41,821 bases of DNA from positions 1 through 41,821 of IMG/VR virus record IMGVR_UViG_3300030329_003321, one strand, 5' to 3'. The position numbers and the translations under genes were made by a program. The first letter of the stretch is position 1, and each line of letters starts with the position of its first letter. Origin of the DNA: a virus. Of this stretch, positions 8,960 through 41,821 are shown piece by piece. The notes under the pieces are model-generated. The model was not told where the DNA came from. It worked only from the letters and a program-made list of their open reading frames with translations, and did no database searches.

Positions 8960-10915
8960 TTAAGCTTCTAAAGCAGTAAAAATGGATTTAAAAGTTGTAG
9001 AACTAGAAGAAGCAGGGTAACCTAATAACCTTAAAGCTCCGCTACTTATATCAGCTCCAAACGTTGCAATTCCTGTAGGTTGGTTAATAGTACCATATTC
9101 ACTCATATATGCATTAGTTCCATCATGAATAACATTAATGGTAGTTCTATTATAATTGGTTCCTTGAACAATTTGAACTTGATAATTTACAGACCTATAT
9201 GTAGAAGCACTAACTGATATTACAGTCGCTGCAGATGTAGATGTAGTTGTTAAAATTCCACCTTGAATATCTCCACCTATTAATTCTAAATTAGTTGAAG
9301 AAACAGGGTCAAAAGTAAAGTCTCCTGCAGTAGCATCATATCTGAGAAATCTACCATCTCCTAAATTAGAATCATCAACATCACTTAATCCTGTAAGAGT
9401 TGTAGTTCCTGCACTGACAGTAGTAAATTTGAATTTCTTACCCTTATGAACTCCAGTTTGATCTAAATCAACAACAAGTTGCATCCCATCATAAGCACTA
9501 ATATTTGTAGAAATACCACTAATATCATCAAGATATTGTAACTCTACAGCACCACCTCCACCAAATGTGGCTAACTGCTGTTGAACTCTATTAACAAATG
9601 TTGTATAGTGCTTAGATAAATCTTCAACCGTTGCAAACTTTTTATCTAATGGTGTAAGAGGATCAGGTTTACCACCCACAGATTGTTCATAAGTAGGAGG
9701 GTCATTTAAAAGACCTTCACTCAATTCTTCTTGAGTTTCATTTAATTGTTTCTGTGTTTCTTTTAACTCCTCAACAATTTTATAAATTTCAACAATATCA
9801 CTTTTACTGTTTCTATACTGTTTATCTAAATCAAAGAGATTTTTCTTTAAACTCCCAATATTCTCATCATAATCTTTAATTTCAGGAAGACTATGAATCT
9901 CTAATTGTAATTTATTAAGATAATCTTTAAGTTCTCTATTAGAACTACGATACTTTTTATTAGATTCTGAAATCTCATTTTCAATCTTTTGCCTAGTCTC
10001 ATTAAGCTTACTTAATACACTTTTCTTTAATTTTCTATCATCATCTTTAAACTCATTATGATGTGACCAAATTTTATCTACTGCATCTTTTATCTCTTCA
10101 TAGATTTTATCTTTAGTCTTATTTAAATGATCACTTACTTCTTTAATTTCAACTTTTTTCTCAAAATCCTTAGTATCAAGATTTTCTGTTAGATCGTGAA
10201 TATCTGCATCAAATTGAGTTTTAAGATCCGTTAAATGATCTTTTACCTTAACAAAGTCATCATCAATTACACTAAAAGTTTTTCCAATCCATGAAAAATC
10301 AGGGACTTCATTAACCTCATTTACCCATTTTGGGAAAGTAGGAATTTGATCCTTAACATCATCAATAGCCTTACATATTGATTTTATTTCACCATCATAA
10401 TACTTTGGTTCTGGGAGATTTTGAATCTTCTCTTCAATAGCATTTAATTGCTCATCATAGTATTTTACTTCTGGAAGAGTTTGAATCTCTTCTCTTACTA
10501 AATCAATTTGCTTACATATTGCTTGTACTTCTGCGTCATAATATTTTACATCGGGAACTTCGGGAATACTCTCTTTTAATTCTTCTAAGTTCTCAGAAAG
10601 TTCTTGAAGTTCTTTATCATAATATTTAATTTCGGGTATATCAGGGATACTTTCCCTAACATCATTTACCATACGAACCAATTCACCCCATTGAGGTGCT
10701 TTGATTACATCAAAAGTCTCATATTCAGTTGGTGTATAGTCATCTCTCCAATTATCCGTTTTTACTTCTTCTTTTATTTCTTCTTTCTCTATGAAATCTT
10801 CTACAGAGGGTAAATCTTTTTCCTCAGATATAAACTCATCTACTGAGGGTAATCCTTCCGAATTATCTTTATAGTCTTCTATAGACGGCAAATTTTCAAT
10901 GTTGTCTTCCGACAT
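8960..10915 (-). CDS. 651-aa fibre-like virion protein with coiled coil and beta C-terminus
   Basis: The protein has three visible regions. Residues 1-45 hold three acidic LPSxxxF/Y repeats spaced 13 aa (from 9, 22 and 35). Residues ~85-440 are charged and helical, with four KYYD repeats at 97, 124, 151 and 171, each led by Pro-rich turns, then long heptad-like stretches; this is a likely trimeric coiled-coil shaft. From about 460 the protein turns Gly/Thr/Ser-rich and beta, starting after FGGGGAVELQYLDDISG, and ends with a domain containing NVIHDGTNAYMSEYG (about 595-610) that also recurs in the 4065-aa protein. A shaft plus C-terminal beta tip suggests a whisker or fibre. It lies between gp16 and gp17, where T4 has nothing. 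A fibritin-like role cannot be shown from sequence. Confidence 0.85.
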   Translation of the reverse strand: MSEDNIENLPSIEDYKDNSEGLPSVDEFISEEKDLPSVEDFIEKEEIKEEVKTDNWRDDYTPTEYETFDVIKAPQWGELVRMVNDVRESIPDIPEIKYYDKELQELSENLEELKESIPEVPDVKYYDAEVQAICKQIDLVREEIQTLPEVKYYDEQLNAIEEKIQNLPEPKYYDGEIKSICKAIDDVKDQIPTFPKWVNEVNEVPDFSWIGKTFSVIDDDFVKVKDHLTDLKTQFDADIHDLTENLDTKDFEKKVEIKEVSDHLNKTKDKIYEEIKDAVDKIWSHHNEFKDDDRKLKKSVLSKLNETRQKIENEISESNKKYRSSNRELKDYLNKLQLEIHSLPEIKDYDENIGSLKKNLFDLDKQYRNSKSDIVEIYKIVEELKETQKQLNETQEELSEGLLNDPPTYEQSVGGKPDPLTPLDKKFATVEDLSKHYTTFVNRVQQQLATFGGGGAVELQYLDDISGISTNISAYDGMQLVVDLDQTGVHKGKKFKFTTVSAGTTTLTGLSDVDDSNLGDGRFLRYDATAGDFTFDPVSSTNLELIGGDIQGGILTTTSTSAATVISVSASTYRSVNYQVQIVQGTNYNRTTINVIHDGTNAYMSEYGTINQPTGIATFGADISSGALRLLGYPASSSSTTFKSIFTALEA

Positions 10916-10959
10916 GTTATGAGTAGCTTAGGTACTTTGGGATTTCTCTCCCCTTAAGT

Positions 10960-11379
10960 TTATTTATTGTCGTTTGGAAGTCCAGTTTTTATGAGTTTAG
11001 CAAGTTCTGCTGTAGATCCCACAAATAATGCATTATTAACAGTATTGGGGCCTTTTGATTGTTGCTCTTCATTTACATCTTTAAGTTTTTTCTGAAGATC
11101 CATCAACTTATCAGTAGCATCAGAAACACTCTTAATTAACTGCCCTGCTACCTCATATGCTCTCGGCATGTCACTCTCTTGAGCAAGTTCAAGAATTCCG
11201 TCAATTGCTTCTTGTCCTTTTTCAATGATAGAATATAAATTGCCTCTTGTATATTCATAATCTCTAGTTATATCATCTTTAGTAATTGGAGGTTTTTGTA
11301 TTCCAACAGGTTCTTTAACTTCAATAGAATCCACTTCCACTTCTGGAGTAATATTAAAGGCATTATCTAGTTGTTTCAT
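10960..11379 (-). CDS. 16: small terminase subunit gp16
   Basis: This is a 139-aa protein (T4 gp16 is 164 aa), the DNA-recognition and regulatory partner of gp17. After a disordered N-terminal ~35 residues come the helices DDITRDYEYTRGNLYSIIEK and AIDGILELAQESDMPRAYEV, then a long LMDLQKKLKDVNEE coiled coil, and the C-terminal VNNALFVGSTAELAKLIK. This helical pattern with the NNALFVGSTAEL motif is characteristic of T4-type gp16. It starts 2 nt after the gp15 stop, as expected for a coupled gene, and is followed by the 651-aa gene rather than gp17. Confidence 0.9.
   Translation of the reverse strand: MKQLDNAFNITPEVEVDSIEVKEPVGIQKPPITKDDITRDYEYTRGNLYSIIEKGQEAIDGILELAQESDMPRAYEVAGQLIKSVSDATDKLMDLQKKLKDVNEEQQSKGPNTVNNALFVGSTAELAKLIKTGLPNDNK
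10961..10968 (-). promoter_or_regulatory. late-promoter-like AATAAATA upstream of the 651-aa gene
   Basis: The minus strand reads AATAAATA, 46 nt before the ATG at 10915. The gp16 stop codon TAA is part of the motif. Confidence 0.4.
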
Positions 11380-15559: not shown

Positions 15560-18500
15560 TTAGGCAAGTGCTAGGACTTTAAGATCTTTCACACGAGGAA
15601 CATATACCTGATTGGTTGAAGTCATTACCAGTTTAATTCTATAGTACCTAAAGGAAGGAACATCAGTGGCAGTGAAAGTTCTTTCTTTAAAGTCATTAAG
15701 ACTAGGTTCTACTAATTCATTATTAGTAGGTGCTACAAACGAATCAGGTCTTCCATCATTATCTGCAGGATCGATTACCTCTCCTCTTTCATTAAGATTG
15801 TTATATCCAGGGAAAGGTCTATAAACTGGTTCAAAGTTTTCATTATCACCAATTGCATAGAATGCTCTAATATCACAACTATCATTCAAATAAACATTTG
15901 CAATAATTTTGACGGAAGATGCAGGATTTTCCAATGCAATTTCTTTAGAAAGATATTGGAAAGCATTAGGATCATCAAACAAACTATTAACTCTATTATC
16001 ACTTGTATAACTACTTAATCCGATAGGAGCATTAACTCTATTAGAAACAAAGATAGCACTCATTCGTTGAGTATCAATTACAGGTGTTAATTTAGAACTT
16101 ACAGTGGATAAATTAATCTGCATATTCATTGATTTATTACCAGGCAATGCACTTAATTTATTTGTTTCATTAATCTTAGAAGCAATTATTCTTGGAGTAG
16201 AAAGAAGATTATTTTCACCTATTGCGACTGCTTCAGATGTTTGTTCTAAATAACCAGTTTCACTACCATCTAAACTAGAACCACTAATAGTTCTTACTTG
16301 GGCTGAAACATTAGTTCCAGGAACTGTAAGAGTTTGTAGTTGAGGATTAATTATTTCAAAAGGAATATTTTGAGTAGCAGTTGCATTAATTCCTCCTCCT
16401 GTTTGAGTTCTATCTGTATATAAAATAGGGAAACTTTCTCCTGTAGATCTGCCCAGTCCACTAGAACCCATATCCAATTTAATAGTATAAGAATCAAAAG
16501 TAATTGGATCTGCCGTAGTTACATCAGCCAAATTGTGAGTTTTATTAATCCTTCTCAGGGAAACTCCACCCAATTCATATTTGTAAACCAGCGTTCCTGC
16601 AAGATAATTCTTAGCGGTAGTAGAATCAATTGATCGAGAAGTAATTCCAATATTGGTTCCTGAGGCAGACTCATAAGAAAGAATCTCATTTCCAATCTGT
16701 AGATAACCATAGTTAGTGGTTCCTACTCCTACACTTTCAAACGTATCTAAGTTATTAACATTTTCTACAACAATCTCTCCTGTTGTAGTAGAATTTAAAT
16801 CATTAGTTAACTTAGTGGGAATAATATCAGTTTGGACATCGGAAAGAGTAACAAAATTATCACTAAAATACATTCCATGATTTTCATGATTAACTACAAT
16901 TTGATCTCCACTAGTAACCTCAGTAATATCATTAATATAAACACCTCCTCCAACATTGTTAGCACCATTTAACTCAGTAGTGATACCAGTAGAACCATCT
17001 AACATAATATACTGAACTGTCTTACCAACACCCGTTACAAAATCACCTTGAACATTATCAACAACTAATTGCGTAGCACTAGAAATTCCAACCACAGATA
17101 ATCTAACATTAGCACCTATAGCCTTATTACCAATACCAGTAGATCCTATACTTAAAACATCACCAGCCACATATCCATCTCCACCTGCTGTAATCGTTGC
17201 ACCAGTTGCTACTCCATTTTCAACAGTAATTTTAGCCGTTGCATTAGCACCACTTCCTGTTACACTACTTAATTTAACATCTGGGAATACCCACCCACCT
17301 GATACAGGAGTAAGTCCAATACCAGAATTAATAATATTTAAAGTTCCTGTTGCAATTCCTGCACTTGAAACATAATCACCTGTAGCATTACTACCAAATT
17401 GTTTGATCGTATATCCTGCTTTTAGATTAGCATCTTCTAAATTAGAACCAATACCTATTCTTATCTTTCTAGAAGTAAAATTAATAGGATCTGGTAATAA
17501 CCTAGCAATTTGATTATTACCTAAAGACAATTCAGGATTATAAACTTCTATTGATCCTGTTTGGGCAAAATCTGCTCTGTATAAAGTAAATTTAAGATCT
17601 TCCCACTGACTTGGTTCCCATGTAGAACCATTTTGAGATTTAAATAAAGAACCCAAGAATGGTTGTTGAGCAACAAAGGTTCCTGTTATTAAATCAGTTT
17701 CTCCTACTCTTGAAACAATGGCAGAATACTTATAGGATTCTGAAAGAAGAACTATTGCATATTCAGTTCCACCTTCAACATAAATTGGAGCATTAAAAGT
17801 AAATGTGGTGGCTACCGTACCATTATTAGAAACACTAATTTCAGATGGTGATTTAACAATTTCAGAAAATGGAATAACCTTTGTAGTAGGAAGACCATTT
17901 ACCATAGTCCTTAATTGGAAGGTAACAGGTAGTTCTGTATCATCTTTTGTAGCAAAATAAACTTCACAACTTGTTAAGAAAACTCCATTAGGATCTGGGA
18001 CAAAGAATGATTGTGCTAGAGGATCCCATTGTTGCATTCCTAAGTTCATCCATATTCTAGTTCCTTCTACTTCTGTCCATCCACCCGTATTTCTTGTTTC
18101 AGTGATAGCAGTATTTTCAATTCTTGCATTTCTAACAGAAATAATATCTTCCTGAATAGTTTCTAGAATTCCCGTAGATCTAAATCCTTCATCCGCAGTT
18201 GTTTGTGCATTTTGTCTATCAAGAGCCTCATTATTAATTAAAGTAAGTACTTTTTCACCTGTTTCAAATCGTGGATGGACTCCAACATCAGGATCAGGAA
18301 TATAAAAACTTCCAATTAAATTTGCTCCAATATCCGATACTAATCTAACATTAGTAACAACTGCTAAAGCACCACTAGTTTCTCCAACTAACATCATATC
18401 ATCTTCTACCCATCCCCAATATGATCCTTGAGGTTGATCTGCTAATGAGAAAGTATCAACATTTAGAATAGTAGAAGTTGATGAATAAGTAGCAGGAATA

Positions 18501-21500
18501 GGTTCCGCAGAATAAGGACTAGCTCCATATCTCTTTGTAGGTGCATTATATGGACCTTCCATATGATTGGACTGTGCTACTCTGAATCTAATACTAGGAT
18601 CCACTAAATTACCATTTTGTGGAGCACCTCCAATTGGTCTAGTTGTTCCAGTAACAGTTTCTCCTACCTGGAATACACCAGAAGCCATGGAAATTTCTAG
18701 TAGTTTAGGAACACAATATTGTGTTACATCTCTACCATCAAAAAATGCATATAATCTAGTAGATGGTTTAACTCGTTTTGCAACAAATTGAACATTACGA
18801 GATCTCATGAACCCAATAAGGTCTCTGCTTACAAGTCTATCTCCTTGGGAAGTCTGATCAAACTGTTCTGTAATTACTCTACGTGTACCTGATCTTGTTT
18901 CCTCACCCCTAACTCTTTGGAAAAGAGCAGTAAACTGCTGCCTCATGTTTTGTCTTCCAGGACGAGAACCTGGAGCCCATCGTTGACCTATTCCTTGAAC
19001 CCTACGTCTTGCGGTTTCTACTGTTCCTGACCAATTTTGTTCCCATGTATTCCAAATAACACCTCCAAATCCTGCTTGAGGATTTCCACCGAATTGTTCA
19101 GTAAATTCAGCAACAGTTTCTGCAAAATCACCTTCCACATTAATAATATTTGCCTCTAATCTTCTAGTATCAAGCCAATTATCAGATGCTGGAGTAAGAT
19201 CAAGAGTTCCCTGCCAGAAAGATACCATGAAAGGAGTTACAGACTCACTTCTAGTTCCTCCTGTTTGCTTTAACCACTCAACTTCATTATAATTAAGAGT
19301 TATTATATCTCCTGTTCTTTTAATATTAGTTCCTTGTGGATTAATATATCTTTTATCCGAATTAGCATTTACTCCTTCTACAGGGCCTAATTCCAAATCA
19401 ACTGCAGTAGTATAATGTTTCGGTCTTAAAATTTGATTTTCTACATCTACACTATTCTTATATCCAACAAGAGTTGTTTGTGAAAGAAAATTAGTAAAAT
19501 TATCAACAAAAAATCCCGCTTTAAATTTATTAAACCCTGCAGAGTCAGGAACAAATAAACTGGCCGTATTTGCTTCTAATAAAGAAAGAGAAGTATAATA
19601 TTCCAAAGATGAAATTCTCTTTTCAAGTCGGTTAATATCCGACATTTTATATCTCTTATAATTTAAGAAATTAATGGAAATGTTATCTGTAGTATAGAGA
19701 TAAGGAGGCAATTCAGCAGTAGCAATCTTTAATCCATCGTCAACTATTATTGGTTCTCGTGGGTTAACAGCAGGAGTACCATATTTAACTTGGAAATTAC
19801 CTTCTTTAGTAATATAGATGGAATCTACTCTTCCAAGATAATATGAAAAATCAGTTAGAATTGTTTCATCAGATGCTAAAATATTAGCCGCAGAATTGCC
19901 AGCAGCATTAAATTCTCTTCCATAAAATTCAAGAGGAGATCTTACATCTTCAGCAACAACATAATCAGAAACTCTAGGTCTAATATCAATTAAATCAGTA
20001 TTTCTAACACCATTTACTGTTTGAATTTCAGTAGTATAATTAAATGTATCATAAGAATTTTTAGTTGTTATATCTCCATCATCTGTAGACTGATAATAAC
20101 CATTTGAAAAATATATTTTTAATTGGCGAGTAGGTGCATCGGAGTCAGATTTTCTTTGAATAGAAGGATATCCATAGAAAGATTGATTTTGACCATTTTC
20201 AGAAGTAAAATTAGGAGATATATTTACACTTGTAAAATCTAAGGTAACAATTTTTCCTTCAATCTTAGATTCTTCAAAAGAAACAACTTCATTTTCTTTA
20301 AATTTAAGATCATTTTCATTAATAATTGATATTTTGCTGTCAGAAACTATTTCAGCAACAATGGCACATGCATTAGAACTCATTCCTTTAATTTTTTCAC
20401 CTACTATCAAATCAGAAGTTTTTCCTGTAGGTCCAGTTAATGATGCAAAAGTTAGTGTAGGAGCTGATGCTTCTGAAGTATCGACAGATTCAAAAACAGC
20501 ATGTACATTTATCAGATCTGCAACATTCAGAGATATATCTAAATCTTGAACTCTAGTACCATAGGGGTAATTTCCTGAAGTTAATCCATCATTAAGAGTG
20601 GTTGAACCAATACCAGATGCAGAATCAATAGATTTATCTACTACAATACTATTAACTCTATTTCTAATTTTCTCCTTTGCTTTAGGTTTTTGCTTTTTCA
20701 GTGTTGTAATGAGAGTAGCATCATCAATACCATCACTTAAACCCTCAATCTGTAATCTAGTGGATCCAGAAGTTATTTTTACTCTATCTTCTGTTAAAAG
20801 TTCAGTAGTACCATCACCTTTTATTAAGGTGTATCTTTCTGGTTTAAAGGGTAAAAATGTTTCATTTGTACCAGCTGCAACCTGTTCTGAAAGTTGACCT
20901 CCACTAATAAGAACACTTTGAGTTTTTCTTATTCTTATAACTCCATCAGTTAAATCAACATTAGAAATATTGGCATTCGGTAAAATAGTATAGAAAGAAT
21001 TATCATCTGAATCTTGTAAATCTGTACTAACAAGAGTTAAATCAGAAACTTGAGTAGTCACAGCAGGTAATTTACCATCAGCTACACCAGTAACCGTATT
21101 AACACCCGTTACAACAACATGAGTCGTACCAACACTGACAACAGATGCCATAATTGGTTCATTAAATTCACTAGTCTGTGATGGACTAAACTTAAGAATA
21201 TTTCCAACTTTAATATCTCCAGGAAATATTGGATTAGTGCTTCTTATTGAACTAATGGTTCCACTTGGATATCCCGAAAGACTAGAATCCCATGCAGTTG
21301 GTGAAAGGGTTGCAATACCAATATTAACAACATTTGTCTGAACGGTGTCTCCAGAGAAGGTCTGTGCAGCACCTACAGTATTCATACTAGGTCCATTAGT
21401 ATTTCCAAATACCGATTTAACATCAGAAATACCAAAAGATGTTACTGCAATAGCAACCCTTGTATTTTCTTCACCATCAATTATAAAATTCTCATTCTTT

Positions 21501-36886: not shown

Positions 36887-39121
36887 TTAATATCCACCAC
36901 CGCCTCCAGTGCCTCCACCACCGCCTCCAGCAGTCGGAGTGGGCATTGTTGGTGCTGCTGCTGTAGTTCCTGATGTCAGAGTAGTAGTACCTCCTCCTCC
37001 ATTTGCCGCAGCTGCTTGAGAAACCATCATGGTTGTACGTCCATCAGGATAGTATGTAACAGTCTCTGTTCTACCTACTGAAGTAGTTATTACTGTATAA
37101 GAACCATCAGCATTATTAACTGTCTCACTAGTTGCAGTCACCTCTCCATCGGTATTACATCCAAAATGAGGTACACCACGAACTAAATCATTATCACCAT
37201 AGTTATCAGCAGGATCTTCGGTGTCACAAGCAGCATTTATCTCAATACCACTTCCATTTCCACTTCCATCATCACCATTACCATTTCCTAATTGTAAATA
37301 GAGATCATGTAATCCCTGCACATTGTTAGAACAAGGAACGGCATCAAACTCAATCACAGGAAAATCAATATAAACATCGGTATCTACAATATTAATAGGA
37401 GATAATTTTATTTCTCCATGTTCGTAATCAATAGTACCTACATTTTGTTTTACAATATCAGCTTGAGTTGGTGACATTAATCTAAACAAGAACATTGTTC
37501 CTTTGGAATGATCATCATCATTTGGTTTGTCTGCGAGATACACCATTCCTTGTATCCCAGAAACATGGAATCCAGTAGTTCTAATATTATGGCCTTTGCA
37601 GTTTTTAACAAACATACAATTTCCAAAACATAGTTCGTATTCCGCAAAACTATTTAACGCTACTCTCAGATCCCTTCTGATCCTTATAGACGTAATATTA
37701 GAGGTAATAGATGGATCAGCACCATCAATCATACATTGGAATTTACTGAAATTAAAAGTTGCTCCGAATTTACCTAAATCTCCACTTCTATTATATTCTG
37801 CAATAGCATTTATTATTGCATTTATAATATCTTCTCTAGATTTTCCTAAATTACAATTATAATATGCATTTATGTCTGGTTCTATGTACAAATATTTTAA
37901 ATCTGTCAATTCTAGGTCAATTCCACCTACATTATACTTTCTAACCGTATTTTTAAGGTTTTCTTTAAGGGCATTTGACAAATAATTTCCATTTACAGGT
38001 TTTACAGCACAAAAAACCTTCCCATATCGAGGAGGACTCAATTCTTCTCCTCCATAACAAGAAATAGCCTCGGTTTCAGGGAATACATTAGGAATTAATG
38101 CTTCATAATCGTCAGCAGTAACTGCTCTGTTCTGTGATGCATAGACTCTAGGACCATATTTCTTAATAGAGTTTATATCTTCAATCTCAGCACCTCCATG
38201 TGAGCAGGTAGTCACGTTAAGTAGTGAAATACCAGAGGTTAATGTTATTCCACCAGATCTACCATTAGTTAAAGTACCACTAAAAGTAACGTTACATACT
38301 CCATTTCCATCTAATCCATCACATACAATATAAGAAACTTCAATATAAGAAGGAGCCTCTAGTTTTTTACCAAAAATACCGTCTCCAAAGATTAATTCAT
38401 ACCTTTCTCCTTCTATTTCTTGCACCCAATAGATAGGTGATTCGCTATTTACTTCAAATAGAGTTTGATTTGTTGTATAATGTCCATGACAACTAGTTAC
38501 AGCACCTGTCTGATGATAAGTTCTACTCGTATTTGATCTTTGAGAAGGTTTTACTGTAACTTTAATAGTAGTTGTATCAATTCCACTGTTTGGAAGGATA
38601 AATCTTTGATTCGGATCATAAGAATCTACTGTAAAATTAGTAGTAAGCTGAGTTCCCTGAAGAAGTTCAATATTAGTGAATAATGCTCTGTTATTATTAA
38701 CTGGTCTTGTAATATCGTCTAATGATACAAAGGTATAACTTTCGTTTGCGAATGCATTTGTTATTGCTACTATTCCTTTGTGTAATTTAATATTTTGAGG
38801 TTGTGAAGAATATCCTGTTGTATCTACGTAAAATGACGCATTAAGTCTTGCTGCTCTTCTTGATCTAGGCAAATATCCAATATTTTGTATCAAGGAAACT
38901 ACATTTTCTCGCAATGTAGCACTATCCAGAAACACCTCATTCGATACCATGTTGGCATTGTAGGAGGTGATATACGTATTATAGGCAAGTATATCAATAA
39001 TTGAGGATAAATTAGATCCCTCAAAGTCATAATCCGTAAATTTGGAGTTGGCCCTGAGATAATCTTTTATTGATACCTTAATCTGGTCAAAATCCAGATT
39101 AGCAAAGTTAACTAATGGCAT
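36887..39121 (-). CDS. 6: baseplate wedge protein gp6 with Gly-rich tail
   Basis: This is a 744-aa protein (T4 gp6 is 660 aa), the wedge component that links wedges into the inner baseplate ring; it belongs to the gpJ-like family. Family segments include KVSIKDYLRANSKFTDYDFE near the start, NVVSLIQNIGYLPRSRRAAR near 90, LIFGDGIFGKKLEAPSYIEV near 240 and AVTADDYEALIPNVFPETEA near 335. The last ~115 residues are not gp6-like: an acidic Cys-containing stretch, a beta-like TSETVNNADGSYTVITT part with YYPDGRTTM, then an Ala/Thr/Gly tail ending in a GGGGGG-T-GGGGGY run. The ATG directly follows the gp25 stop (TAAATG). Confidence 0.95.
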   Translation of the reverse strand: MPLVNFANLDFDQIKVSIKDYLRANSKFTDYDFEGSNLSSIIDILAYNTYITSYNANMVSNEVFLDSATLRENVVSLIQNIGYLPRSRRAARLNASFYVDTTGYSSQPQNIKLHKGIVAITNAFANESYTFVSLDDITRPVNNNRALFTNIELLQGTQLTTNFTVDSYDPNQRFILPNSGIDTTTIKVTVKPSQRSNTSRTYHQTGAVTSCHGHYTTNQTLFEVNSESPIYWVQEIEGERYELIFGDGIFGKKLEAPSYIEVSYIVCDGLDGNGVCNVTFSGTLTNGRSGGITLTSGISLLNVTTCSHGGAEIEDINSIKKYGPRVYASQNRAVTADDYEALIPNVFPETEAISCYGGEELSPPRYGKVFCAVKPVNGNYLSNALKENLKNTVRKYNVGGIDLELTDLKYLYIEPDINAYYNCNLGKSREDIINAIINAIAEYNRSGDLGKFGATFNFSKFQCMIDGADPSITSNITSIRIRRDLRVALNSFAEYELCFGNCMFVKNCKGHNIRTTGFHVSGIQGMVYLADKPNDDDHSKGTMFLFRLMSPTQADIVKQNVGTIDYEHGEIKLSPINIVDTDVYIDFPVIEFDAVPCSNNVQGLHDLYLQLGNGNGDDGSGNGSGIEINAACDTEDPADNYGDNDLVRGVPHFGCNTDGEVTATSETVNNADGSYTVITTSVGRTETVTYYPDGRTTMMVSQAAAANGGGGTTTLTSGTTAAAPTMPTPTAGGGGGGTGGGGGY
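36894..36930 (-). repeat. 21-bp tandem repeat coding for a polyglycine tail of gp6
   Basis: A 16-bp unit (plus strand CCACCACCGCCTCCAG) occurs twice, starting at 36894 and 36915, a 21-bp period. It lies in the last codons of gp6 and is a GC-rich island in AT-rich DNA, consistent with recent slippage duplication. Confidence 0.75.
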
Positions 39122-39872: not shown

Positions 39873-40649
39873 TTAGATAACACGAGTTTTTTCGTGGCCT
39901 ACACGTATTCTAGGGTCGCACCAGATGTCATACCCTGCATCGATAGCATCTAAACAGAAACTAACGTCTTCTCCGCACATATCTTGTACTGCTCCAGACT
40001 CAAACTGTTGCATTTTAGGTGCGAACCAAGGATATGTCATTTTCTCATCTTCAAATACACCGTTTTTGATCATGACCCAACCAAAACCTGTGTAATCTAC
40101 AGTGAAAGGCTTGCGACGTTTGCTGATCGATTCCACTGTTTCGTGATTCATGACTCCACCATTCTTACGAAAATCATCTTCTTCTAACCAGTGTGCGACA
40201 GAAGTAGTTTGCCCGTCCTCTGTAGCATACCAACCAGCAGATATAGGACGATCATCTCCTTCAGCAGGTAATGCAAGGTCACATAATTGCCAGAACTTGT
40301 TAGTATCAAAGACAATATCCGAGTCAATCCATAACTGATAGTCGTATTCTAGTTTACCATCCCAAGGTACTTGATTAGGCCCACGAAGAACATTTGCACC
40401 TAATACTTTACAACGTGCAAAGTTTACCATAGAAGAGTAATCCTGACTAATCTGAATACTCATTCCATTCTGTACCATATCAAAGCACAGTTGTACAAAG
40501 TTCTTTAAAAAGATGTAAGAAGTTCCTCTACCTGGAAGACAAAATACTATCTTCTTTCCTTTCCATCTTTCTTTAATAGCTGGTATATCCCAATCTGGTT
40601 GTTTGCTTTTCTTCGGTGGTACAGTTTTTACCGTAAATCCTTTTGCCAT
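39873..40649 (-). CDS. glycosyltransferase-like protein (GT-A fold)
   Basis: This is a 258-aa protein with GT-A-type features. A first strand is at KKIVFCLPGRGTSYIFLKNF (residues 32-51), and a DxD-type metal/nucleotide-sugar motif is in LWIDSDIVFD (Asp109, Asp111). An acceptor-side segment DYTGFGWVMIKNGVFE is near 185-200, and a late GEDVSFCLDAIDAGYDIWCD is near 226-245, followed by a His (VGHEK, His252) typical of metal-binding GT-A enzymes. No membrane anchor or signal peptide is present, so it acts in the cytoplasm, perhaps modifying a host or virion component; the sugar and acceptor cannot be told. A strong sigma-70-type promoter (TTGACA-N18-TATAAT) is directly upstream, so it may be expressed early. 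Confidence 0.85.
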   Translation of the reverse strand: MAKGFTVKTVPPKKSKQPDWDIPAIKERWKGKKIVFCLPGRGTSYIFLKNFVQLCFDMVQNGMSIQISQDYSSMVNFARCKVLGANVLRGPNQVPWDGKLEYDYQLWIDSDIVFDTNKFWQLCDLALPAEGDDRPISAGWYATEDGQTTSVAHWLEEDDFRKNGGVMNHETVESISKRRKPFTVDYTGFGWVMIKNGVFEDEKMTYPWFAPKMQQFESGAVQDMCGEDVSFCLDAIDAGYDIWCDPRIRVGHEKTRVI

Positions 40650-40983: not shown

Positions 40984-41015
40984 AGGTAAAAAGGTAGACA
41001 AAGGGTTTTTTACCT
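40984..41015 (-). terminator. AT-rich hairpin upstream of the 76-aa gene promoter
   Basis: A 9-bp inverted repeat, AGGTAAAAA and TTTTTACCT, with a 14-nt loop, lies just before the -35 of the promoter at 40953-40981. The stem is weak, and the long leader transcript from the upstream promoter would have to pass through it. It could be a weak terminator or attenuator. Confidence 0.3.
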
Positions 41016-41156
41016 CGGAAAATTTTTGGCGATTTTTATATATACATCTCGAATTGTCACCTCTGTAGGTTAGGGTCTCTATCTTTTTTATAAACGCAAC
41101 GCCCCCGACCCCCGCTAACACATAAGACCGCAAATACTGTCAATACGCATATAACA

Positions 41157-41236: not shown

Positions 41237-41307
41237 CTAAGTAATAAGAACTGTGTATTCCTTAAGTAATAAGAATGCAGAGTAAATTGTCAGACCTTAA
41301 GTAATTA
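41237..41307. repeat. three short direct repeats, core TAAGTAAT
   Basis: TAAGTAATAAGAA occurs at 41238-41250 and 41263-41275, and TAAGTAAT again at 41298-41305, overlapping the stop of the 57-aa gene. Spacings are 25 and 35 bp. The purpose is unknown; binding sites for a regulator or replication factor are possible. Confidence 0.55.
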
Positions 41308-41478
41308 CCAACTGACAGGATTACTCATATCTTCAATAATACTTTTGCACCTCTCATTGTCTTGTAATTCAAATACTTTCTCCCATGAAATATCGTGTGG
41401 ATTAAAGTCACTTAGTGTCTCTAATTCTAATGTTATTCTATACTTACTCTTCTCCGCTTGATTGTAAAGAACTGACAT
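41305..41478 (-). CDS. 57-aa small protein
   Basis: This frame from ATG at 41478 to TAA at 41305 encodes SVLYNQAEKSKYRITLELET followed by LSDFNPHDISWEKVFEL, then a charged helix and a PVSW end. It begins with a beta strand and continues with helices, and has one Cys. It is too short for a standard ORF cut-off. A strong sigma-70-type promoter (TTGACA-N17-TATAGT) about 30 nt upstream, and a codon pattern free of stops, support it. I recall near-identical small proteins in cyanophages. Function unknown; position near the origin-like region suggests early expression. Confidence 0.8.
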   Translation of the reverse strand: MSVLYNQAEKSKYRITLELETLSDFNPHDISWEKVFELQDNERCKSIIEDMSNPVSW

Positions 41479-41509: not shown

Positions 41510-41538
41510 ACTATAACATACCTGAGAGATACTGTCAA
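41510..41538 (-). promoter_or_regulatory. sigma-70-type promoter for the 57-aa gene
   Basis: On the minus strand, TTGACA (41538-41533) and TATAGT (41515-41510) are 17 bp apart. It sits 32 nt before the ATG at 41478. Confidence 0.7.
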
Positions 41539-41558: not shown

Positions 41559-41650
41559 AACAAAAGTGTTACAAATCGAACCTAAACTGTCGGTTCTAGT
41601 TTGTTACTGAACTGGTTTGTTATTATACCCATAAAATATTATCGAGGGGC

Positions 41651-41679
41651 TTGTAATATTTGCGAGTTCGTGTTATAAT
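41651..41679 (+). promoter_or_regulatory. rightward sigma-70-type promoter with overlapping inverted repeat
   Basis: TTGTAA (41651-41656) and TATAAT (41674-41679) are 17 bp apart on the plus strand. A 6-bp inverted repeat, GCGAGT at 41662-41667 and ACTCGC at 41682-41687, flanks the -10, which could be an operator. It is the only promoter pointing right and presumably drives genes beyond the window. Confidence 0.65.
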
Positions 41680-41711
41680 CGACTCGCTAAGATCACTAAA
41701 GAAACTAACAT

Positions 41712-41786
41712 TTATCAACACATTTTCCACACTAATTAACACTTATTCCACAGATTAACTCACTATTCTTATCAACTTGTGGAAAA
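41712..41786. promoter_or_regulatory. cluster of DnaA-box-like sequences, possible replication origin
   Basis: Within 75 bp are TTATCAACA (41712-41720), TTTTCCACA (41723-41731), TATTCCACA (41744-41752), TTATCAACT (41769-41777) and TTTTCCACA on the minus strand (41786-41778). The two TTTTCCACA copies fit the relaxed DnaA box TTWTNCACA exactly, and the other three differ by one or two bases. The DNA around is AT-rich. Whether DnaA binds here, and whether replication starts here, is unproven. Confidence 0.45.
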
Positions 41787-41821
41787 CGATTAGAAAACAT
41801 AAGTATATTTAATTTGCTATT

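Follow-up and report, generated by a model that had tools for sequence, protein, structure and literature searches.

Five DnaA-box-like 9-mers at the end of a cyanophage contig

The window analysed here is a complete contig of 41,821 bases, an IMG/VR virus fragment. The phage was identified as T4-like, as the first-pass annotation had it, by two baseplate genes, gp6 (36887-39121) and the baseplate wedge gene gp25 (PF04965; 39122-39523, minus strand), the latter a landmark 2.2 kb from the box array described below. Matches of the window to phage records were exclusively to Synechococcus, Prochlorococcus, cyanophage and marine-virus entries. A 57-amino-acid ORF of PHROG 12516, to which no function is assigned, lies at 41305-41478 on the minus strand and served as the anchor in the search for relatives. 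Between gp25 and the array, the operon encodes a 258-amino-acid protein (39873-40649) that falls in PHROG 1574 and whose match to glycosyltransferases is weak. At about 41010-41085, on the minus strand, a late-promoter-like TATAAAAA precedes ACCCTAACCTACARAGGT, a leader that is highly conserved, and then the next gene, an arrangement that recurs in S-RIM2, S-SM1, P-SSM7 and S-CAM22.

As had been noted at first pass, five DnaA-box-like 9-mers lie within 75 bp (41712-41786), two of them in opposite orientations. The series begins with the DnaA-box-like TTATCAACA (41712-41720, plus strand), which many relatives carry at about -241 from the 57-amino-acid ORF. A DnaA box, TTTTCCACA, follows on the same strand at 41723-41731, 11 bp or one helical turn away, and the DnaA-box-like TATTCCACA (41744-41752, plus strand) lies 21 bp, or two turns, from that box. 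The weak box-like TTATCAACT (41769-41777, plus strand) precedes the second TTTTCCACA box, which is on the minus strand at 41778-41786, the position of a conserved box at -307 in relatives. Only the two TTTTCCACA copies match TTWTNCACA exactly; TTATCAACA and TATTCCACA each have one mismatch and TTATCAACT has two. The entire 41.8 kb window contains TTTTCCACA twice, both copies being these oppositely oriented ones in the cluster. Neither two TTTTCCACA copies nor four loose boxes fell within 75 bp in any of 1,000 windows simulated with a second-order Markov model, or in any of 400 simulated with the local AT-rich intergenic composition. A conserved AT-rich stretch, AATAGCAAATTAAATATAC (41802-41821, minus strand), delimited from the alignment of relatives and possibly an unwinding element, reaches the contig end. 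Because the contig stops at 41821, 35 bp past the last box, the window holds the array only in part.

Box words in cyanobacterial hosts

The first-pass annotation had named TTTTCCACA as the cyanobacterial form of the box, and the published record agrees: Synechococcus elongatus, Anabaena and Cyanothece all use it as their DnaA box, and in most cyanobacteria the origin adjoins dnaN (PMC4674748, PMC2275245). TTATCAACA is a box form reported from the linear chromosome of Cyanothece (PMC4674748). The host side was checked in seven Prochlorococcus and Synechococcus genomes in which dnaN was located. Exact TTTTCCACA occurred upstream of dnaN in two of the seven (L312, L313) and near-match variants, mostly with one mismatch, in the remaining genomes; Synechococcus RCC307 showed little box signal there. 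Support for a host-form box is moderate from the host genomes examined and stronger from the literature.

An intergenic inverted pair, TTTTCCACA-N35-TGTGGAAAA, was common to seven of nine host genomes (L319-L325; G012-G016, G018 and G019), for example at G013:C13:62688-62751, with a third box 11 bp, or one helical turn, from the pair in six of the seven. This pair adjoins an EVE-domain-like gene, with a DnaK-like gene not far away, and is possibly a DnaA-regulating or titration site. In one of these hosts, Prochlorococcus MIT 9314 (G013), an ORF at L334 4367-5668 has a start closely resembling eukaryotic ubiquitin (MQIFVKTITGKTITLDVE...) and a long unassigned C-terminal part.

Conservation and helical phasing of the boxes

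The exact 20-mer of the tandem boxes had no match in IMG/VR, and protein-anchored and spaced-pair searches took its place. BLAST of one relative's intergenic region (L014) against phage records returned a single short match, and that of another (L161) none. The 57-amino-acid ORF identified 80 loci in IMG/VR, 60 of which have at least 420 bp upstream. At least two exact TTTTCCACA boxes were present upstream of the ORF in 44 of these 60 loci and at least one in 47, so that the conservation in related phages that the first-pass annotation had wanted checked was found. That annotation had also proposed comparing the box density with that of the rest of the genome, and the density proved unique to the site: per 10 kb, TTTTCCACA had 64 copies there and 0.18 in the rest of these loci. 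As a control, the reversed word averaged 0.18 per site against 2.87 for TTTTCCACA. Every TTTTCCACA copy lay inside the array in three long relatives: five of five in G001 (70.8 kb), six of six in G007 (43.8 kb) and five of five in G010 (37.0 kb).

In close relatives the boxes are laid out, from the ORF start, at -406 (+), -382 (-), -307 (+), -273 (-), -241 (-) and -87 (+); compared with the window, they have a further inverted pair some 75-100 bp beyond the position of its box at 41778-41786. The alignment runs from a near-invariant inverted pair, GTTTTCCACA...TGTGGAAAAC, through AT-rich AAATAGCAAATTAAATATA (41802-41821 of the window) to the boxes of the window. DnaA-type variants (TTATCCACA, TTATCAACA and TTATACACA) occupy equivalent positions in relatives. 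Good boxes number 2-8 per genome, and just 2-3 in many isolates.

Spacings were evaluated after pieces more than 80% alike had been removed; relatedness still inflates nominal p-values for the phasing described here. In the 57-amino-acid ORF family, same-strand boxes were mostly 11-12, 21-22 or 31-33 bp apart (R 0.92, n 27) and opposite-strand boxes in the +- arrangement 12-14, 23-25 or 34-36 bp apart (R 0.88, n 41); phasing was not seen for the -+ arrangement. Loci found by pattern gave a same-strand R of 0.85 (n 59). Half-turn gaps between boxes were nearly absent. Together, these data describe host-form 9-mers that occur above chance and are conserved among relatives with regular spacing.

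Promoters facing the array and leading away from it

The divergent promoter reported beside the boxes was located on both strands. On the plus strand, P_R (41651-41679) is of sigma70 type, TTGTAA-N17-TATAAT, and faces the boxes. On the minus strand, P_F (41510-41538) is an early promoter, TTGACA-N17-TATAGT, that serves the 57-amino-acid ORF and the genes after it. Most isolates carry P_R as TTGAC-N17-TAAGAY, and S-SM2 as TTGACA-N17-TAGAAT; the opposite early promoter, TTGACA-N17-TATAAT/TACAAT, reads into a small ORF. Since its second hexamer is poor, the TAAGAY form was missed by the promoter scan, and the strength of the candidate promoter is uncertain where this form occurs. The gap between the P_R words is rigid and the spacer varies, for which reason CTTAGC...GTCAA, at first taken for a hairpin, is interpreted as a promoter. 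The annotated isolates have no gene ahead of P_R on its strand over several kb. In the clade of the window, P_R (about 41640-41690) also holds a dyad, GCGAG...CTCGC, around TATAAC, and the register of its arms shifts between relatives.

The distance from the end of the box pair to the -10 of P_R was 58-59 bp in 20 of the 31 loci with the element. Helical turns account for distances of 48, 58-59 and 69 bp but not for 87-88 or 97 bp, so we claim a preferred distance here and not phasing. P-SSM4 (L355 ~10832-11230) and P-RSM4 (L358 ~16968-17370) retain the divergent promoter pair with the boxes absent or decayed, P-RSM4 having an apparent decayed box, TGCGGAAAA. Boxes and promoters are thus evolutionarily separable.

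Distribution among cyanophages

A scan for TTTTCCACA-N13-17-TGTGGAAAA returned at least 120 IMG/VR stretches; among the matches listed, 101 of the 119 loci read carried cyanophage-type genes. The box cluster was present in 13 of 22 cyanophage isolates examined, some of these positives having come from the pattern search itself: S-PM2, Syn9, S-SSM5, S-ShM2, Syn1, Syn33, S-RIM50, P-SSM7, S-SM1, S-RIM2, S-CAM22, S-SM2 and P-TIM68. It was absent from the other nine (P-SSM2, P-SSM4, S-RSM4, P-HM1, P-RSM4, S-SSM7, SynMITS9220M01, Bellamy and S-SCSM1) and from T4. Twelve isolates had been chosen ahead of scanning, and six of them had the cluster. The stretches read in box-negative isolates contained no clusters of loose boxes either. 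With several cyanophage lineages lacking them, the boxes are not indispensable family-wide.

Where position was checked in isolates, the cluster was situated some 2-6 kb upstream of gp25, flanked by a dense array of small ORFs on one side and by the next early promoter on the other. The median intergenic gap in S-PM2 is 6 bp (PMC5931967), which makes gaps of hundreds of bases unusual. The three-box cluster of S-PM2 itself (L349 3678-3834; S-PM2 19177-19333) overlaps annotated tRNA-Asn and tRNA-Leu genes; either the tRNA annotation is off or the boxes are located in the tRNA ends. The DnaA DNA-binding domain (PF08299) was found in none of the 22 isolates nor in T4, and was detected in all ten control bacteria. 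For these genomes a phage-encoded DnaA system was thereby ruled out.

Duplex stability, skew and RNA structure at the site

Duplex stability beside the boxes, in 50-bp windows, ranked in the lowest 0.02% for S-SM2, the lowest 1% for P-TIM68 and the lowest 4% for the window analysed. A change of GC skew, for which the first-pass annotation had proposed to look, did not appear: skew was monotone, with no switch at the site, in the complete relatives S-SM2 and P-TIM68. As RNA, the inverted box pair folds at -15 to -18 kcal/mol. No terminator was called at the pair, base-pairing was not kept beyond the 9-mer, and neither the window nor the L014 site matched an Rfam family. In Syn1, S-PM2 and S-SM2 the box repeats are direct or mixed, which makes a hairpin impossible, and in the alignment of relatives unpaired boxes retain the identical word. 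On these grounds a general hairpin or terminator reading was rejected; the inverted pair could additionally act as one.

A candidate DnaA-assisted early origin and its alternatives

Judged by its sequence, the site is probably a genuine array bound by host DnaA, and it suggests that cyanophages built like T4 use or capture this host protein. That the boxes are a chance cluster, as might be supposed for an intergenic, AT-rich region, is practically excluded: none of 1,400 simulated windows reproduced it, the cluster is conserved in many lineages and it is helically phased, and we consider this explanation refuted.

The reading that we favour, with a confidence somewhat short of even, is that the array is a DnaA-assisted, transcription-coupled early origin. 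Early in infection, cis-acting boxes of host form would recruit host DnaA to one fixed place in the genome, where the protein would occupy one face of the helix, on boxes one, two or three turns apart, just downstream of P_R. DnaA on its boxes and transcription running from P_R across the neighbouring AT-rich DNA would then jointly open the duplex; the P_R transcript may provide a primer or form an R-loop, and the phage replisome would begin first-round replication at the opened site. An origin is favoured because a promoter without a gene reads into AT-rich DNA, as in T4 oriF and oriG. The conserved, site-unique boxes of host form, their fixed place and phasing, the facing promoter and the AT-rich DNA alongside all speak for it. 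Against it stand the lack of a GC-skew switch, the nine of 22 isolates without the cluster, a duplex stability just in the lowest 4% for the window, the promoters without boxes in P-SSM4 and P-RSM4, and the mostly one-mismatch boxes upstream of host dnaN. Losing one helper need not be fatal, given the five or more early origins of T4. A broader proposal, that widespread lytic phages with a T4-type replisome start or license first-round replication via DnaA at a syntenic, phased origin with a non-coding early transcript, is more tentative, and we put it as possible rather than probable. With similar reserve, such an origin might be described as a hybrid of bacterial oriC and the T4 R-loop origin.

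Next in rank after an origin comes transcriptional control, an option beyond the pair of origin and decoy named in the first-pass annotation, in which DnaA would act via the box-facing promoter of the divergent pair. DnaA would here be a transcription factor only, repressing or activating P_R and perhaps P_F so that phage transcription tracks the DnaA level, with no origin involved. The preferred 58-59 bp from boxes to the P_R -10 in 20 of 31 loci fits such control, as do the extra box by P_F (at about -87) in some lineages and the survival of both promoters in P-SSM4 and P-RSM4, which lack the boxes; however, P_R has no annotated gene to regulate and the distances of 87-88 and 97 bp are out of phase with the 58-59 class, and we regard this reading as rather unlikely. 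It is less probable again that a different regulator, of the phage or the host, recognises the 9-mer, or that the 9-mer works as an RNA hairpin or terminator, its identity with the DnaA box being coincidental. Recognition by DnaA is indeed deduced from the 9-mers themselves, and RNA folding of the inverted pair does yield -15 to -18 kcal/mol; yet coincidence accounts poorly for the exact host consensus with DnaA-type variants TTATCCACA, TTATCAACA and TTATACACA at equivalent positions, and a hairpin accounts poorly for the repeats of Syn1, S-PM2 and S-SM2 that are unable to form one, for the loss of pairing outside the 9-mer and for a pair at which no terminator is called.

The array might instead be a decoy that titrates DnaA, blocks new rounds of host replication and frees nucleotides and machinery for the phage. 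Two to eight good boxes per genome would be multiplied as phage DNA accumulates, and E. coli datA shows that DnaA-box arrays can reduce DnaA activity (PMC4585315). A decoy would need neither a fixed place, nor a fixed promoter distance, nor helical phasing, and many isolates have just two or three boxes to offer; we consider it improbable, more so than either of the foregoing alternatives.

Relation to known systems

In most accounts, T4-like phages do without host DnaA. The literature searched, to which most subscription papers did not belong, reports neither DnaA boxes nor mapped origins for T4-like cyanophages, and the two main comparative genome papers on these phages mention neither DnaA nor replication origins. 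The array offers a precise place to seek the origin of T4-like cyanophages and, if the proposal is true, phage DNA replication would be tied to the host cell cycle in very abundant marine photosynthetic cells. The proposal is highly testable, because cultured phages carry the site (S-RIM2, S-RIM50, Syn9, Syn1, S-PM2, P-SSM7 and S-SM1).

With cyanobacterial oriC the array shares the TTTTCCACA word, several boxes in both orientations and AT-rich intergenic DNA (PMC4674748, PMC2275245); it differs in belonging to a phage with its own replisome, in not lying by dnaN, in having a facing promoter and in showing no GC-skew switch. The origins of T4, of which at least five are early, consist of a promoter and an AT-rich downstream element; oriE has an early promoter with 12-nt direct repeats that relatives keep at syntenic positions, and oriF and oriG have MotA-dependent middle promoters (PMC3016281). 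The array resembles these three in a promoter that reads into AT-rich DNA, and oriE also in an early promoter with repeats. T4 origins, however, have no host DnaA boxes, their repeats not being DnaA boxes, and for P_R the sequence suggests a promoter of the host sigma70 type, where oriF and oriG use MotA-dependent ones. E. coli datA and DARS are likewise intergenic DnaA-box clusters of defined spacing; unlike the phage array, they are host chromosomal regulators of the nucleotide state of DnaA, defined without such promoter coupling.

Lambda (pR/ori-lambda) and P1 (oriR) are known cases of phages whose DNA makes use of host DnaA boxes, and in lambda boxes downstream of the promoter help transcriptional activation of the origin. 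Both phages, unlike those carrying the array, are temperate and dependent on the host replisome, and their sequence and layout are unrelated to it.
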